64,000 nt of DNA from a virus, in the IMG/VR virus record IMGVR_UViG_3300028840_008160, positions 265,801 to 329,800 of that record, one strand, 5' to 3'. A model generated the notes under the pieces. It saw only the letters and a program-made list of their open reading frames with translations, did no database searches and was not told the DNA's origin. Positions 17,083 through 59,383 of the stretch are shown one piece after another (position 1 is the stretch's first letter; each line of letters starts with the position of its first letter). Position numbers and translations under genes: made by a program.

Positions 17083-18063
17083 ATGATTGATTTTTTTAAA
17101 CGACTAATTCAATATTTGCGAAATTTATTTTTGGCAAAACAAGCATTTTGGCCAGAGAGTACGTTTGACATTCTTAACAAGGAGAGTACCGTGAGATGTC
17201 CAAAACTGGGTTGGATGCGTGATCTTCCAGATATTAGAGACTATAGTGTTGATACGCCAAAAGTACAAGAAACGTTAAAGATGTATCCTCAATATGGTTC
17301 AACAATACCAGACACTGTTGATTTAAGACAATGGTGCTCTCCTATAGAAGATCAACAAGCTTTAGGTTCTTGCACAGCCAATGCTGCAGTTGGCGCAGTC
17401 GAGTTGTTACAAAGGGCATATTATGGTAATCATATTGATATGTCTAGATTATTTGTTTACAAAACTACAAGAAATCTTATGCAAAGAACAGGTGATACTG
17501 GTGCTACTATTCGTGGAACAATGAAAGCTCTTGCAATGTTTGGTTCGCCACCGGAGCAATATTGGGATTATGATATTCAAGATTTTGATCTTGAACCATC
17601 ACAATTTGCTTATGCAATGGGTCAAAACTACAAGGCAATTAGTTATTACAGATTAGATCCACAAATAAAAACCACAGAAGCTATGAGTCAAACAGTTCAG
17701 CGTATTCAACAACAACTAGCTTGGGGTATTCCTTGTGTGTTTGGTTTCATAGTTTTTTACTCAGTTCCAAGACCTGGTGATGGGAAAATTGATATTCCAA
17801 TGCCAACGCCCGGTGATTATCCAATGGGAGGTCATGCTGTACTAGCTGTTGGTTATGATAATAACCGTATGATGCCAACGACTACTCCTGGCAAATCTGT
17901 GAAAGGTGCGTTTCTTATTCGTAATTCGTGGGGAACTTCATGGGGTGATGGTGGATATGGCTGGTTGCCCTATTCATTTGTAAGGTCTGGTCTTGCAGTT
18001 GATTGGTGGGCACTTGCATATACTGATCATATTGATCTTTCACAATTTGACACCAGGAGATAA
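17083..18063 (+). CDS. Papain-like (C1A) cysteine protease 1
   Basis: 326 aa. The C1A catalytic set is present: IEDQQALGSCTANA (oxyanion Gln and catalytic Cys), GGHAVLAVGYD (His), IRNSWGTSWGDGGYG (Asn). An N-terminal extension of ~75 residues precedes the core, including D-L-P-D-I-R-D-Y, typical of bacterial and phage C1A proteins. The first 20 residues are amphipathic, not a clear signal peptide. Paralogue of 33817. Could act on host envelope or regulatory proteins or in virion maturation; substrate unknown. Followed 3 bases later by the cupin gene. Confidence 0.9.
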   Translation: MIDFFKRLIQYLRNLFLAKQAFWPESTFDILNKESTVRCPKLGWMRDLPDIRDYSVDTPKVQETLKMYPQYGSTIPDTVDLRQWCSPIEDQQALGSCTANAAVGAVELLQRAYYGNHIDMSRLFVYKTTRNLMQRTGDTGATIRGTMKALAMFGSPPEQYWDYDIQDFDLEPSQFAYAMGQNYKAISYYRLDPQIKTTEAMSQTVQRIQQQLAWGIPCVFGFIVFYSVPRPGDGKIDIPMPTPGDYPMGGHAVLAVGYDNNRMMPTTTPGKSVKGAFLIRNSWGTSWGDGGYGWLPYSFVRSGLAVDWWALAYTDHIDLSQFDTRR

Positions 18064-23117: not shown

Positions 23118-23302
23118 TGTCATTACTTATTAAACCAACGCCAGTTCTTACTGGTGAAGATGCGCAGCGTTTTGCAAAGGCTATAGAAAATCCAAAGCCT
23201 GTGTTAAAAGAAGAGTATCTTCGTGCCAAGAAGACGTATGAAGCTGTGGTACGAAAGCATAGTCAATTTTCTATAGAAAATGACTTGACTACTCTTCAAT
23301 GA
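23117..23302 (+). CDS. Small helical protein (61 aa)
   Basis: Start overlaps the preceding TGA by one base; its own stop overlaps the RNA ligase start (ATGA). Contains TGEDAQRFAKAIENPKPV, probably soluble. Unknown, but always translated with the ligase. Confidence 0.55.
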   Translation: MSLLIKPTPVLTGEDAQRFAKAIENPKPVLKEEYLRAKKTYEAVVRKHSQFSIENDLTTLQ

Positions 23303-23913
23303 AAGACTATCCAGCAATTTCACGAGACATTCAGTTCGGATTACCTGTTTATGCTTTTGATAAATTGGACGGGTCAAATATTCGAGCAGAGTGGACGCGT
23401 AAGCATGGGTTTAATAAATTCGGCAGTAGAAAACGATTACTTGGCACAGACCAAGAATTTTTGCCAGAAGCGATTAGGCTTGTCAAAGACAATTTTGAAG
23501 AGCAACTTGCGAAGATTTTTGTAAAACAACGATTTGACCGTGTTATGTGCTTCTTCGAATTTTATGGTGAAAACTCGTTTGCCGGAGTGCATGTCAAAGA
23601 ACCCCATCGTGTAGTCTTATTTGATGTTAATCCTTATAAGAAAGGGATAATGTTTCCTCGTGAATTTTTAAGTTTGTTTGGGCATCTCGACATTCCTCGA
23701 TTATTACATCAAGGTAATTGCACTCATCCATTCGTAGATAGTGTCAAAAATAATTCACTTGAAGGACTGACAAGTGAAGGTGTTGTTTGTAAAGCACCGG
23801 GTAAAGGAAAAATGTCATTGCCTATAATGTTCAAAGTTAAGACAGAACAGTGGATCACTAAACTCAAAACATATTGCGGTGATGATGAAAGATTGTTTAG
23901 AGAACTGTTATGA
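23299..23913 (+). CDS. RNA ligase, Rnl2-type nucleotidyltransferase
   Basis: 204 aa. Covalent nucleotidyltransferase motifs in order: motif I FDKLDGSN with the adenylated Lys at residue 22, motif III F-F-E-F-Y-G, motif IV SEGVVCKA, motif V MFKVK. Length covers the adenylation domain only (T4 Rnl2 is 334 aa), so the C-terminal RNA-binding domain is missing or highly diverged. Likely seals nicked RNA, for example tRNA cut by host anticodon nucleases. Coupled to both neighbours by ATGA. Confidence 0.88.
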   Translation: MKDYPAISRDIQFGLPVYAFDKLDGSNIRAEWTRKHGFNKFGSRKRLLGTDQEFLPEAIRLVKDNFEEQLAKIFVKQRFDRVMCFFEFYGENSFAGVHVKEPHRVVLFDVNPYKKGIMFPREFLSLFGHLDIPRLLHQGNCTHPFVDSVKNNSLEGLTSEGVVCKAPGKGKMSLPIMFKVKTEQWITKLKTYCGDDERLFRELL

Positions 23914-33816: not shown

Positions 33817-34653
33817 ATGATGAGTTATAATTTGAATTTGATGAAGGATCCGGACGACAAACGCGACTTTCCTTTTTTAGCTAGTTTTACACCAGAAGAA
33901 CTAAAAGCAGGTCGTTTGTCAAACATTCCTGAAATAATTGATCATAGTGATTTGATGTCACCTGTAAAAGATCAAGGTCAACTCGGTAGTTGTGTAGGAT
34001 TTGCTGTTACGGCATTGAAAGAATGGCAAGAGCAGAGAGAACATAAAGAAGAAGTTGAATCGGGTAAGTTTGATCATCGCGATGAAAAGTATTACGACTT
34101 ATCTGAATCTTGGGTATATTGGATGTCAAAAAAGATTGACTGTTGGCCAGGGCTTGAAGGAACATCAATTCGTTATGCTATGAAAGTACTTAATACACTC
34201 GGCGTGCCTTGTGAAAAAGCTTGGCCTTATGACGACAAAGTTAAGGGCGAACCTAAAAGTTGGGCTAAACTCGTTGCTAGATGGTCACTTATTGGTTCAT
34301 ATTATAGAGTAAACACATTGAATGAACTTATCACTGCGTTAGCTCAACACCCAGTAGCAATCGGTATTGCTTGTTTTGAAGGCATTTTCTTTGTTGGTGA
34401 AGATGGCATTGTGCCGATGCCAAGAGATTCTGCTTATTGCTATGGTGGACATGCTGTTTGTGCTGTTGGCTATGATCAACATAAGAAGTTAATAAAGTTC
34501 AAGAATAGTTGGAGTACGAATTGGGGAGAAAAGGGTTACGGTTACTTACATTATGATTATGTAGGTACGAACAATTACATGTGGGATGCTTGGTATTGTA
34601 AAGACCTTTCTGTAACAAAAGACATGCTTGAAGGCACTAGGAATTTGATATGA
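33817..34653 (+). CDS. Papain-like (C1A) cysteine protease 2
   Basis: 278 aa with AGGGAG upstream. Catalytic elements: PVKDQGQLGSCVGFAV (Gln and Cys), YGGHAVCAVGYD (His), FKNSWSTNWGEKGYG (Asn). N-terminal D-P-D-D-K-R-D-F-P-F resembles the equivalent D-x-R-D-Y of protease 1. No signal peptide, so it acts in the cytoplasm or is packaged. First of a coupled operon with three module genes, so it could be their processing enzyme (speculative). Confidence 0.9.
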   Translation: MMSYNLNLMKDPDDKRDFPFLASFTPEELKAGRLSNIPEIIDHSDLMSPVKDQGQLGSCVGFAVTALKEWQEQREHKEEVESGKFDHRDEKYYDLSESWVYWMSKKIDCWPGLEGTSIRYAMKVLNTLGVPCEKAWPYDDKVKGEPKSWAKLVARWSLIGSYYRVNTLNELITALAQHPVAIGIACFEGIFFVGEDGIVPMPRDSAYCYGGHAVCAVGYDQHKKLIKFKNSWSTNWGEKGYGYLHYDYVGTNNYMWDAWYCKDLSVTKDMLEGTRNLI

Positions 34654-42289: not shown

Positions 42290-42480
42290 AATTTGTTAAG
42301 GAAATCATAAGAAAACATAAATTGAGAAAGATGAATCAGCTAATTAGAGATACTGAAAACTTTATAGCATGTGCAGATAGTGATAATGCTCTGTCATTAG
42401 CTAGAAACTGTCGCAAACGAAGATCTGAATTAGTTGATTTGTTAGAAAAGCTCGAACAAAAGAAACGAGAACTAGAATGA
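42286..42480 (+). CDS. Small coiled-coil protein (64 aa)
   Basis: ATGA overlap on both sides, between the CoaB-like fusion and CoaD-CoaE. Basic start, then helices rich in Leu, Lys and Glu. Unknown. Confidence 0.6.
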   Translation: MKFVKEIIRKHKLRKMNQLIRDTENFIACADSDNALSLARNCRKRRSELVDLLEKLEQKKRELE

Positions 42481-43640
42481 AGACAGCAATTTACGCTTTG
42501 TCAGCTGATCCAATTACATATGGCCATATCAATATTGTTGATCGAGCATTAGCAGTATTCGATAAAGTTGTTGTAGCTATTGGAAATAATCAGACCAAAA
42601 AGTATACGTTTACATTGGATGAGAGAGAACAACTTGCAAAAGCTGTTTTTTCTGGTAAAAAGTATGAAAATCGTATTGAGGTTGCATCATTTAGAGGCTT
42701 ATTAGTTGATTTTGCGTTTGAACAAAGCATCACGACGATCATTCGCGGTGTGCGAAATACGACTGATTTTACTTTTGAACAGGTGTTAAATGATGTTAAT
42801 CAGTCACAACGTCTTGGTGTAGACATTTATATACTTATAGCAGATCAAACATTGTCACATGTGAGTTCGAGTGCTGTTAAAGAATTACAAGCTAATTCTG
42901 GTAAGAATATTTTAGACTATGTACCTTTAGCAATCAAAGAAGCTTTAGAGATAAGAATAAGTAAACAATTTAGAATCGGGATTACTGGCTCAATTGGTGC
43001 TGGCAAATCATTTGTGTCTAAAAAATTGCGAAAGTATAATAATGATATTAAACATATCAATATCGATGATATTGGCAGATACATTGTTACTGAGTCACAA
43101 CATCCAATAGATGTTCGAACTAGAGAGCAATTAGCTAAAATGTTAAATCTTAGTTTACCGATGTCATTAGATACATTAACTAATTGCATCTTTGGCAATG
43201 CTAATGCATTGCATACATTTAATGAACTTATGCAGGAACCTATTTTATTGAAATTAAGACAACAATTATTTGGTCTTAAAGGCATTATACTTATCGAGTC
43301 TGCAATTTTCGCAGAAACTCATACATCTCATGTTGTCAACAATAATATGATATTAGTAAGCGCATCTAATGATGTTTGTTACGAACGACTTAAATCTAGA
43401 TACAAATTTTTAGCTGATATAAGTGATTCAAAAATAGATGAAGACATTGTACGCAGAATGAGTAGTCAATTTTGTACTGATGACAAACGACGTAGTTTAG
43501 AAGCTGACATCGCAAAAGCAGGACACGGAACAATTATTGATTTTTGTAATGATAAACCATATCAAAGTGATTTTGAAGATTTACTTGTGCGAGTTGAAAA
43601 ATTATCTAAATTGAAAATAACAGGTGATGTAAATGAGTAG
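42477..43640 (+). CDS. coaDE: Bifunctional CoaD-CoaE: phosphopantetheine adenylyltransferase + dephospho-CoA kinase
   Basis: 387 aa. Residues 1-~160 are CoaD: ALSADPITYGHINIVDRALA with the T-x-G-H nucleotidyltransferase motif, IIRGVRNTTDFTFE, and HVSSSAVKELQ, as in the I-S-S-S-x-V signature. Residues ~163-380 are CoaE: P-loop IGITGSIGAGKSFV, HINIDDIGRYIVTE (D-x-D-x-I-like), then IILIESAIFAE. Together they catalyse the last two steps of CoA synthesis from 4'-phosphopantetheine. The prokaryotic enzymes are usually separate; the same order as in the animal CoA synthase fusion is seen here, probably independently. Coupled to 42286 by ATGA. Confidence 0.88.
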   Translation: MKTAIYALSADPITYGHINIVDRALAVFDKVVVAIGNNQTKKYTFTLDEREQLAKAVFSGKKYENRIEVASFRGLLVDFAFEQSITTIIRGVRNTTDFTFEQVLNDVNQSQRLGVDIYILIADQTLSHVSSSAVKELQANSGKNILDYVPLAIKEALEIRISKQFRIGITGSIGAGKSFVSKKLRKYNNDIKHINIDDIGRYIVTESQHPIDVRTREQLAKMLNLSLPMSLDTLTNCIFGNANALHTFNELMQEPILLKLRQQLFGLKGIILIESAIFAETHTSHVVNNNMILVSASNDVCYERLKSRYKFLADISDSKIDEDIVRRMSSQFCTDDKRRSLEADIAKAGHGTIIDFCNDKPYQSDFEDLLVRVEKLSKLKITGDVNE

Positions 43641-43765: not shown

Positions 43766-44158
43766 ATGAAATACGGTCTTGATTTTCATGGTGTTATAGA
43801 CACATTTCCACAGCAGTTTTGTGATTTTAGTCATACTATGGCTAAACAAGGTCATGAAATTCATGTCATTACTGGAAGCATGTTTAACGAGAAGTTCAAA
43901 GCTAAGTTAGATAGTTTTAATATTCATTATGACAAAATCTTTTCTGTGTCTAATTATTTGATTGCAGAACACAGAAAAGTCCATTTTTCTAGCCCTGACA
44001 ATCCATGGTTTGACGAAACCGAATGGCGACAACAAAAAGGGTTATATTGTAAACGTGAAAAGATTGATATGCATTTTGATGATGGAGAAGAGTATGCTCC
44101 ATATTTTGAACCACCAACAATATTTATGTTGGTAAAACCACCGATTGTAAGATCATGA
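43766..44158 (+). CDS. HAD-superfamily phosphatase-like protein
   Basis: 130 aa. N-terminal KYGLDFHGVIDTFPQ holds the nucleophile Asp (D-x-H-G-V), followed by E-I-H-V-I-T-G-S (motif II Thr/Ser) and MHFDDGEEYAPYF (motif IV Asp pair). Small cap-less HAD proteins of this type are often nucleotidase-like in phages. The substrate is unknown; a 5'-nucleotidase role near CoA and thymidylate genes is possible. In frame with the upstream zinc-ribbon stretch if one A is skipped. Coupled to SmpB by ATGA. Confidence 0.75.
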   Translation: MKYGLDFHGVIDTFPQQFCDFSHTMAKQGHEIHVITGSMFNEKFKAKLDSFNIHYDKIFSVSNYLIAEHRKVHFSSPDNPWFDETEWRQQKGLYCKREKIDMHFDDGEEYAPYFEPPTIFMLVKPPIVRS

Positions 44159-44589
44159 AAATTGTAGTTAATAACAGAAAGGCTTTTCATGACTACAGTG
44201 TGATTGACACGATCGAAGCCGGTATTGAATTGGTTGGCACAGAAGTCAAGTCAATTCGTGTAGGTAAAATCAACTTAATGGACAGTTATGCGCAATGCTT
44301 AAATGGTGAAGCTTACATCATACATTTGCATATCAGTCCATACAAACAAGGTTATGATAATCATGACCCATATCGAAAGCGCAAATTATTATTGCGCAAA
44401 CGTGAAATATCAAAATTGAAATCTGATATAGATCAGAAAGGTCTCACTCTAATTCCACTCAAAGTGTATTTTAAAGGACAACGTGTTAAGATTGAGTTGG
44501 GATTGTGTCGAGGCAAAAAGAAATATGACAAACGAGAATCGATCAGAGCAAAAGAAACAAAACGACAACTTTCTAGGTTAGGAGTTTGA
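44155..44589 (+). CDS. smpB: SmpB, tmRNA-binding protein
   Basis: 144 aa, slightly shorter than cellular SmpB (~155-160). Near-complete family signature: NNRKAFHDYSVIDTIEAGIE, LVGTEVKSIRVGKINLMDSY, H-I-S-P-Y, YRKRKLLLRKREISKL, GLTLIPLKVYFKGQRVKIEL, L-C-R-G-K-K-K-Y-D-K-R and a basic C-terminal tail. SmpB binds tmRNA and places it in stalled ribosomes for trans-translation. No tmRNA gene was found in the window, so it should act with the host's or a distant phage tmRNA. Reading frame intact and all core residues present, so likely functional. Confidence 0.92.
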   Translation: MKIVVNNRKAFHDYSVIDTIEAGIELVGTEVKSIRVGKINLMDSYAQCLNGEAYIIHLHISPYKQGYDNHDPYRKRKLLLRKREISKLKSDIDQKGLTLIPLKVYFKGQRVKIELGLCRGKKKYDKRESIRAKETKRQLSRLGV

Positions 44590-44813: not shown

Positions 44814-44841
44814 ATGGCCGGATTTTCCGGCCATTTTTTTT
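44814..44841 (+). terminator. Intrinsic terminator
   Basis: Perfect 8-bp stem ATGGCCGG/CCGGCCAT, ATTTT loop, T7 tail. Ends the CoA/SmpB operon. Confidence 0.92.
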
Positions 44842-47294: not shown

Positions 47295-47836
47295 TTTGTC
47301 GACGTTGTAAAAAAAGAAAACGACTATCTAGTTTTAATGAGTCAGTCATTAAAAATAGAAAGTTTATTTGTAAAGATTGTCTTAAATTAGCGAGATATAA
47401 TTATAAGAAAAATGTGAATTATGTTATTATTGGCATATATAACCATCAACAACATTCTGGTATAAAAGTTTGTTATTCGTTGGAAGAACTAGGTGTTTGG
47501 CTAACACACAATCAAAAGTTTTTAGATTTATATTCTAAGTGGATTGCTTTTGATTGTACTAGGTCATTAAAACCAATTGTCGCCAGAATTGATACTAGCA
47601 AACCGTTTGCAATAAATAATTTGTATGTAACAACATTGAAAAATCATAAGTTAGAAATAAGTAAACAGCGTTCAAGACCAGTTGCGCAAATTGATAATCG
47701 TGGTCATATAGTTGCTAAATTTACAAATGCTAGAGTTGCTGCTAGAATGCTTGGTTCTAAATTTTATGCTAATATTCATGATTGTTGTAGAAAACGTAGA
47801 GCAAAAGCTTTGGGTTATCGTTGGCAATATATCTAA
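47291..47836 (+). CDS. Homing-endonuclease-like protein (zinc finger + NUMOD-like end)
   Basis: 181 aa. N-terminal ribbon C-R-R-C-K-K ... FICKDCLKLARYN, a middle domain with Y-S-K-W-I-A-F-D and PIVARIDTSKPFAINNLYVT similar to HNH/AP2-type phage endonucleases, and a C-terminal NUMOD1-like repeat: R-P-V-A-Q-I-D, VAKFTNARVAARMLGS, C-C-R-K-R-R-A-K-A-L-G-Y-R-W. Such proteins are often free-standing phage homing endonucleases. The classic HNH pair is not clear, so activity is uncertain. Lies just upstream of thyX, a frequent site for such elements. Confidence 0.6.
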   Translation: MICRRCKKRKRLSSFNESVIKNRKFICKDCLKLARYNYKKNVNYVIIGIYNHQQHSGIKVCYSLEELGVWLTHNQKFLDLYSKWIAFDCTRSLKPIVARIDTSKPFAINNLYVTTLKNHKLEISKQRSRPVAQIDNRGHIVAKFTNARVAARMLGSKFYANIHDCCRKRRAKALGYRWQYI

Positions 47837-47847
47837 GGAGGATAAAT

Positions 47848-48633
47848 TTGAAAACAACAAAAATTGGTACATTTAAAATATTGTCAAAAACAGATAATAT
47901 TATTGATAATATAGCAACAGCTGCAAGAGTATGTACACAAAAGCAGGACAAGGCATCGCCAGAAACAAATTACAAGTTAGTTAAAAATTTATTGGCTCGA
48001 GGTCATTACGCTATGATTGAATTTGCTGATATGACAGTCGAGTTTTCAAACGTAAGTCGAGGGTTTACTCATGAAATGGTTCGTCATAGGTTATGTTCAT
48101 TTGGTCAACAATCTACAAGATACGTGGATGAGAGTGATCTCCATGTAGTTTTGCCACCGCATAAGGATGAGCACCAACGGACCAAGAGAAGTTCAAAACC
48201 TATTGAGTATTTCCAACTCATAGAAGAGATGTATAAGTCGTTGAGAGAGTCAGGGTATAAGCTTGAAGATGCTCGGCAAGTATTGCCAATTGCTACACAA
48301 TCACAGATTGTGGTCAAGGCCAACCTGAGAGAATGGCGTCACATCTTTGAGATGCGATGTGATTTTTACGCTCACTGGGAAATTAGAAGTGTAATGTTAA
48401 GATTATTAAAATGGGCTAAGCAAGACATACCTCTTATTTTTGATGACTTCTCGTTTTTCCAATCAACAAAAACAAATCAAATATATGCAAAAAAAATTAT
48501 GTCGAAATCACAAATAGAAGATGCATTATCACATTATTTGAAATGTAATCCCGATGTTGATCTCAATCTTCTTTTGGTATCTTCTAAATCTAAACCAGTT
48601 AAAATAGAAATAGAGTCGCGATTGCTCCCGTGA
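47848..48633 (+). CDS. thyX: Flavin-dependent thymidylate synthase ThyX
   Basis: 261 aa from TTG 6 bases after AGGAGG. The ThyX signature RHRxxSxxxxSxR is exact: VRHRLCSFGQQSTRY. Also LLARGHYAMIEFADMTVEFS, E-D-A-R-Q-V-L-P and LREWRHIFEMRCD (substrate-binding Arg region). Converts dUMP to dTMP using FADH2 and methylene-THF. Usual length ~220-250, here slightly long at the C-terminus. Confidence 0.93.
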   Translation: MKTTKIGTFKILSKTDNIIDNIATAARVCTQKQDKASPETNYKLVKNLLARGHYAMIEFADMTVEFSNVSRGFTHEMVRHRLCSFGQQSTRYVDESDLHVVLPPHKDEHQRTKRSSKPIEYFQLIEEMYKSLRESGYKLEDARQVLPIATQSQIVVKANLREWRHIFEMRCDFYAHWEIRSVMLRLLKWAKQDIPLIFDDFSFFQSTKTNQIYAKKIMSKSQIEDALSHYLKCNPDVDLNLLLVSSKSKPVKIEIESRLLP

Positions 48634-58342: not shown

Positions 58343-58484
58343 TTCTCAAAAAATTGAAGAAACATTTGATATAGTATCGGCTATGAGAGTCAAAATGTAA
58401 CTTCCCATTTACGTAACTCATCCTACACCGCATCCTAAACGAAAATTTGATGGCAAACCTCGCAAATGGTGCTGTCTTGATTGA

Positions 58485-58519
58485 CTTTCTTTGTTTCTGC
58501 GCATGACTATTCTTACATG
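58485..58519 (+). promoter_or_regulatory. TGACTAT-CATG promoter motif at a start codon
   Basis: TTTCTTTGTTTCTGCGCA, core TGACTAT at 58504-58510, 6 bases, then ATG. The upstream T-rich block also appears before 14742 and 41219. No Shine-Dalgarno. Confidence 0.65.
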
Positions 58520-59383
58520 AAATATGGTTATGCGTGTATTAACACAGTTCTACGCGAACAGAAAATTTTTGCTAGCAGAGGAATGACGCAAAAGACTTTT
58601 CTTACAAAAGGCCTTCAATATGCGTCTATGTTAGCATTGCAAAATGCCAAAGATTTATTGACTATTCTTCAATGGAATCAAAATCATAGCATATTCTTTT
58701 ATCGCATGTCATCTGGCATATTTCCCTGGATGTCAGAATATGAATTGCAAGATCTTCCAAATTTTGACGATATTAAATCAATTCTCCAACAAATAGGTTC
58801 ATTTGCTAAAACTCATCACCACAGACTTACATTTCATCCCGGTCAATTTAATGCATTAGCATCGCCAAAAGACATCGTCGTTCGCAAAACAATAAAAGAA
58901 CTGGAACAACATGCTCAAATAATGGATTTGATAGGCCTACCTCGATCACCACAAGCAAAAATCAACATTCATGTAGGCGGCACATATGACAGCAAATTGT
59001 CAACTCTTAATCGTTGGTGTAATGTTTTTTATGATCTCAGTCAATCAGTTCGTTCTCGACTTACATTAGAAAATGATGACAAACCTAATGGCTACACAAC
59101 AAACGATTTATTATGGGCTCACGAGCTAACAAACATTCCTATCACATTCGACTCGCATCATCATACATGCAATGGTCAATCTTCTCACAAACAAGCTATG
59201 AAACTAGCATTCAAAACGTGGCCAAAACATGTAACGCCAGTAATTCATGTGTCGTCGCATCGACCCGGATCATCAATACAAGCACATGACGACTTTGTAC
59301 AATCATTCGATACATTCAATATGAATGTTGATGTCATGTTTGAAGCAAAACAAAAAGAACAGGCTGTTTTACGACATCTATGA
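58517..59383 (+). CDS. uvdE: UV-damage endonuclease UvdE
   Basis: 288 aa; start taken at the ATG in the promoter motif (MKYGYACINTVLRE). UvdE/Uve1 TIM-barrel marks: R-M-S-S-G-I-F-P-W-M-S-E-Y, RLTFHPGQFNALASP, KINIHVGGTYDSKL, LTLENDDK, ITFDSHHHTCNG, VTPVIHVSSH. The metal ligands His, Glu and Asp of the family are all visible. Cuts 5' of UV photoproducts, protecting phage DNA. Confidence 0.92.
   Translation: MKYGYACINTVLREQKIFASRGMTQKTFLTKGLQYASMLALQNAKDLLTILQWNQNHSIFFYRMSSGIFPWMSEYELQDLPNFDDIKSILQQIGSFAKTHHHRLTFHPGQFNALASPKDIVVRKTIKELEQHAQIMDLIGLPRSPQAKINIHVGGTYDSKLSTLNRWCNVFYDLSQSVRSRLTLENDDKPNGYTTNDLLWAHELTNIPITFDSHHHTCNGQSSHKQAMKLAFKTWPKHVTPVIHVSSHRPGSSIQAHDDFVQSFDTFNMNVDVMFEAKQKEQAVLRHL

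Follow-up and report, generated by a model that had tools for sequence, protein, structure and literature searches.

An SmpB gene and an intron-split, long-tag tmRNA gene in a single huge-phage genome

The genome of the phage studied here (G000, a virus record of 329,800 bp) encodes the two partners of the principal system by which bacteria rescue ribosomes, namely SmpB and tmRNA, the latter from a gene interrupted by a group I intron. In this system, SmpB replaces the missing anticodon arm and probes the empty mRNA channel with its tail, and tmRNA provides alanine and the tag (PMC3985003, PMC8012679). All parts for trans-translation appear intact in the phage, and we consider it likely, judging from the two genes, that a working SmpB is paired with the phage's own tmRNA, making up a phage-owned trans-translation pair.

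The smpB gene and its neighbourhood

The window, i.e. the whole stretch of DNA that was analysed, comprises 64,000 nucleotides (C1:265801-329800 of the record). Its features of relevance are as follows:

23299..23913, + strand: RNA ligase (PF09414, 3.7e-7, 30.9 bits against a cut-off of 27)
42477..43640, + strand: CoaD-CoaE fusion, two ORFs upstream of smpB (PF01467, 6.5e-15; PF01121, 1.9e-10)
43766..44158, + strand: ORF of 130 aa (phrog_13623) without Pfam match, directly upstream of smpB, its stop overlapping the smpB start
44155..44589, + strand: smpB (PF01668, 192.9 bits; PDB SmpB matches), putative partner tmRNA outside the window
44814..44834, + strand: terminator-like hairpin with a run of T after it (pattern only; hairpin count not above shuffles)

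The smpB gene is a complete open frame of 144 aa on the plus strand, running from the ATG at 44155 to the TGA at 44587-44589. Its product matched the PF01668 profile at 3.3e-57 (cut-off of 27 bits) over profile positions 1-139 of 143. Solved SmpB chains align with it over almost their full length, the best being 7ljp (1.2e-44), and the Thermus thermophilus SmpB structure 1j1h is likewise matched (2.3e-40). A chance ORF at 44155-44589 is ruled out by these profile and structure matches. By its sequence, the product is an SmpB, a newly seen example of an already known protein family, with bacterial identities of at most 58% (MAGs of Oscillospiraceae). The sequence-only reading of this window had described a complete SmpB with all family blocks, which is borne out by the open frame and the profile score. 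Mutated tmRNA-binding residues, which would have spoken against function, were not seen: the family-invariant columns are retained together with the tail start GKKKYDKR (pattern GKKxYDKR; Y124-D125-K126-R127). The tail after DKR counts 17 residues versus a bacterial median of 22 and is thus short but present. Tails in 15 phage records of >200 kb likewise have a median of 17 residues, the bacterial median coming from 76 relatives; these samples lack independence and are biased towards Bacillota.

The start of smpB is shared with the stop of the preceding ORF in an ATGA overlap, and the hairpin at 44814..44834 is the likely end of the smpB transcript. The 'CoA operon' in which the gene had been placed is only partly recovered, as the CoaD-CoaE fusion is present but the gene directly upstream of smpB has no Pfam match. 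Elsewhere in the window we noted genes for a UvdE UV-endonuclease (215.6 bits; 58481-59383) and ThyX (166.5 bits; 47821-48633), as well as two papain-family (C1) peptidase genes (17083-18063 and 33817-34653).

A tmRNA gene split by a group I intron

Inside the window, ARAGORN and Rfam were both negative for tmRNA, in agreement with the sequence-only reading. Its suggestion that the phage SmpB could serve a phage tmRNA encoded elsewhere is supported by the Rfam search of the complete record (RF00023), which found a tmRNA gene with an intact-looking tRNA-like domain at C1:177233-177873, 131 kb from smpB, with 102.7 bits against a cut-off of 47 and over the full model (1-374). ARAGORN reported nothing at this locus, because a group I intron of 236 nt splits the T-loop (TTCGAT before the intron, T after it). 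This intron matched RF00028 with 94.1 bits immediately after the tmRNA match, beginning within the T-arm. The 5' exon (C1:177233-177623) has the terminal letters GGGGTTCGAT, and the 3' exon, TCCCCTCACCTCCA, ends at 177873; a U precedes the intron and a G is its last nucleotide. As we read the numbering of PMC11915505, the intron would sit at position 7, the main one of the known T-loop sites. The intron contains no ORF of note, and therefore a homing endonuclease was not seen in it.

In-silico removal of the intron yields an RNA of 405 nt with a 7-bp acceptor stem including G3·U70 and a T-arm made of a 5-bp stem and the loop TTCGATT; CCA is absent from the gene. The DNA itself shows that the genes are intact, that one genome has both partners, where the intron begins and ends, and that stem and loop re-form. 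With GCC as the resume codon, set by alignment with the Rfam consensus, the tag frame reads AKANNFAVAFARQFADNVRFGVMAGALQAA and is closed by a TAA stop. This tag has 30 aa and ends in LQAA, departing from the usual LAA degron. UUCG-looped hairpins are predicted within its coding part (z = -2.1), which lends modest support to an RNA structure in this region. A mobile repeat as the origin of the extra hairpins was rejected, the hairpin sequence not being recurrent in the genome above control. A DNA search with the tmRNA gene gave no match among 50,697 phage records, and its matches to plasmids were all short and weak.

The genome further encodes 56 tRNAs covering all 20 amino acids. Together with the RNA ligase, whose presence in the window proved real albeit with a modest match, they fit a programme that sustains translation. 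The RNA-damage theme into which the sequence-only reading had fitted the ligase is plausible from these genes, and a general translation-supply programme would fit them as well. Two of the tRNAs have the stop anticodons CUA and UUA (C1:151440-151511 and 158885-158959), and in both the anticodon is preceded by C in place of U; TAG and TAA nevertheless continue to serve as stops in this genome. Read-through by suppressor tRNAs is known to generate substrates for trans-translation (PMC3985003), and a link between these tRNAs and phage trans-translation is possible. A recoded genetic code as the motive for rescue was discarded (TAG stops in 53 of 381 ORFs; coding density of 0.91 with the standard code). 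Two further observations concern another group I intron (63.4 bits; C1:145744-145926, L040), which splits the anticodon loop of an apparent tRNA-Asn(GUU) between GGCT and GTTAACC, and a protein at C1:139658-140947 that by eye resembles trigger factor, a ribosome-bound chaperone.

Relatives and the co-occurrence of SmpB and tmRNA

The large terminase, which had no Pfam match and was recognised by eye through its Walker motifs, returned only three relatives in a profile search. Closest by this protein is G037, a contig of 416 kb (69% terminase identity); its tmRNA (80 bits) is interrupted at the same position by a related group I intron (91.0 bits). A pattern for the intron start led to a further contig of 62.8 kb (L289/G040) with a tmRNA of 86.7 bits and an intron of 103.7 bits. 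A second pattern scan yielded no additional members, and one candidate (L290), without tmRNA and without intron, was dismissed as a chance match to the pattern. In all three phages (G000, G037, L289/G040), removal of the intron re-forms 7 of 7 acceptor pairs with G3·U70, the T-stem and the T-loop, and in one of the three a compensatory change from G-C to A-U has occurred at acceptor pair 5. The tags are open frames of 30, 28 and 28 aa ending in LQAA, AMAA and AAVA, each a small hydrophobic C-terminus with a final Ala, the 28-aa tags of the two related IMG/VR contigs differing in sequence. Identity among the three phages amounts to 75-82% for the introns and 57-66% for the tmRNA exons. A NadD-like adenylyltransferase frame was observed 3' of the tmRNA at L001:2152-3174 and, by eye only, at L289:1240-1411 (minus strand); in the genome studied here, a MazG domain is fused to this frame.

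The 735-kb phage LR756501 carries SmpB, a weak tmRNA match of 21 bits, which is below the cut-off, and a strong group I intron match (96 bits) immediately behind it. Its tmRNA acceptor also reads with G3·U70, and the U/G rule did not place the exact ends of its intron.

SmpB was not detected in the 416-kb contig by tblastn or PF01668, with LR756501 as positive control, though this record may be incomplete; nor was it found on the 62.8-kb contig, which is a fragment. As the nearest relative holds an intron-split tmRNA without detectable SmpB, the pairing is not obligate in this lineage and SmpB is the more variable partner. Release-factor-type rescue as a replacement for SmpB was rejected, PF00472 being absent from G000, G037 and G040 and present in the control LR756501. 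Among viral contigs 394 SmpB relatives were found, several of the top ones being on short contigs or possible bacterial carry-over. A tmRNA exceeded the cut-off in 8 of the 34 SmpB records searched, and both genes were found over the cut-off in independent huge phages, namely Lak-B5, LR756504 and several IMG/VR contigs. In a tree of 117 SmpB sequences the huge-phage SmpBs fall in several places, which suggests separate acquisitions, an indication only given the 149 columns. The SmpB studied here forms a long and weakly placed branch by itself, outside the main group of huge phages, and its nearest bacterial source is not fixed by the tree despite the identity to Oscillospiraceae.

Proposed working and relation to known systems

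We infer splicing, charging, binding, tagging and a benefit during infection along the following lines. The group I intron would splice from the tmRNA precursor and restore the T-loop, whereupon host AlaRS could charge the tRNA-like domain with alanine via G3·U70. Phage SmpB would bind this charged domain, and the complex would enter ribosomes that have stalled on mRNA that is broken or lacks a stop codon, add the 30-residue tag ending in LQAA and release the ribosome at the TAA stop of the tag. We posit that the phage would gain ribosomes that stay usable while phage or host nucleases cut mRNA or tRNA. In Escherichia coli, tagging requires the DKR motif and the tail of SmpB, and truncations of the tail impair it (PMC8012679). 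The short phage SmpB tails and the LQAA end count against a working pair. It seems rather improbable that this huge-phage lineage keeps a private, intron-gated trans-translation, in which splicing of the intron, better conserved among the phages than the exons, would time the functional tmRNA and the long tag would act instead of, or on top of, routine degradation.

The occurrence of tmRNA without SmpB in the relatives shows the two to be separable and would also suit a phage SmpB that mainly boosts the tmRNA-SmpB system of the host, with the phage tmRNA being a separate or decaying element. SmpB-bearing phage records without detected tmRNA point the same way, although fragments and intron forms blur their count. 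Against decay, however, three phages retain an intact acceptor and T-arm, an open tag frame and intact intron ends despite the divergence of their exons, and we regard this explanation as unlikely, if the most serious of the alternatives. If the pair were instead turned against the host, it might compete with or redirect host trans-translation, for example by placing a long and different tag on host products. The phage tags are indeed long compared with the most frequent length of 10 in the tmRNA database (PMC11915505), and the same paper reports that the tag-less tmRNA of phage DS6A inhibits the endogenous tmRNA of E. coli. Yet the tags studied here end in Ala-Ala or Val-Ala, resembling proteolysis tags, their frame is kept, and loss-of-function features are absent from the SmpB and tmRNA sequences; we therefore think an attack on host rescue improbable. 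Even less credence is given to smpB as a recently gained neutral passenger. Its absence from the records of the closest relatives and its isolated position in the tree would agree with this, but the family blocks, the open frame and the ATGA overlap are all kept along a long branch, which points to selection on the gene after its acquisition. A phage SmpB working with the phage tmRNA is the reading that we prefer.

The sequence-only reading implied a greater novelty than remains, because SmpB and tmRNA were already reported in huge phages (Al-Shayeb et al., 2020; PMC7162821). Those phages likewise have genomes of >200 kb and many tRNAs; their tmRNAs were identified with ARAGORN, which missed the intron-split genes tested here, and the available text of that paper does not mention an intron. 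Since this standard tool overlooks intron-split phage tmRNAs, published counts of phage tmRNAs are probably low. Phage tmRNAs as such are well known (402 of 18,146 phages; PMC9004378), but among the open-licence papers searched none was found to describe a phage tmRNA with an intron. The genome offers a compact system in which to ask if phages rescue ribosomes with a machinery of their own, and also why the T-loop of tmRNA attracts self-splicing introns.

Among known systems, the complete tmRNA of the Methylophilales phage Melnitz is comparable in being phage-encoded, but it is a permuted two-piece molecule, whereas the tmRNA described here is in one piece, is split by an intron and occurs together with SmpB (PMC9004378). 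Group I introns in the tmRNA T-loop have been described from bacteria, in 883 sequences of 21 phyla (PMC11915505). They share with the phage form the location in the T-loop, which in the phage is at their main site (position 7), the U before the intron, the G at its end and the lack of a homing endonuclease ORF; they differ in residing in bacterial hosts with the usual 10-aa tag, in contrast to the phage-encoded tags of 28-30 aa. What is new here is the intron-split, long-tag form of tmRNA in a phage, within the known SmpB-tmRNA system.
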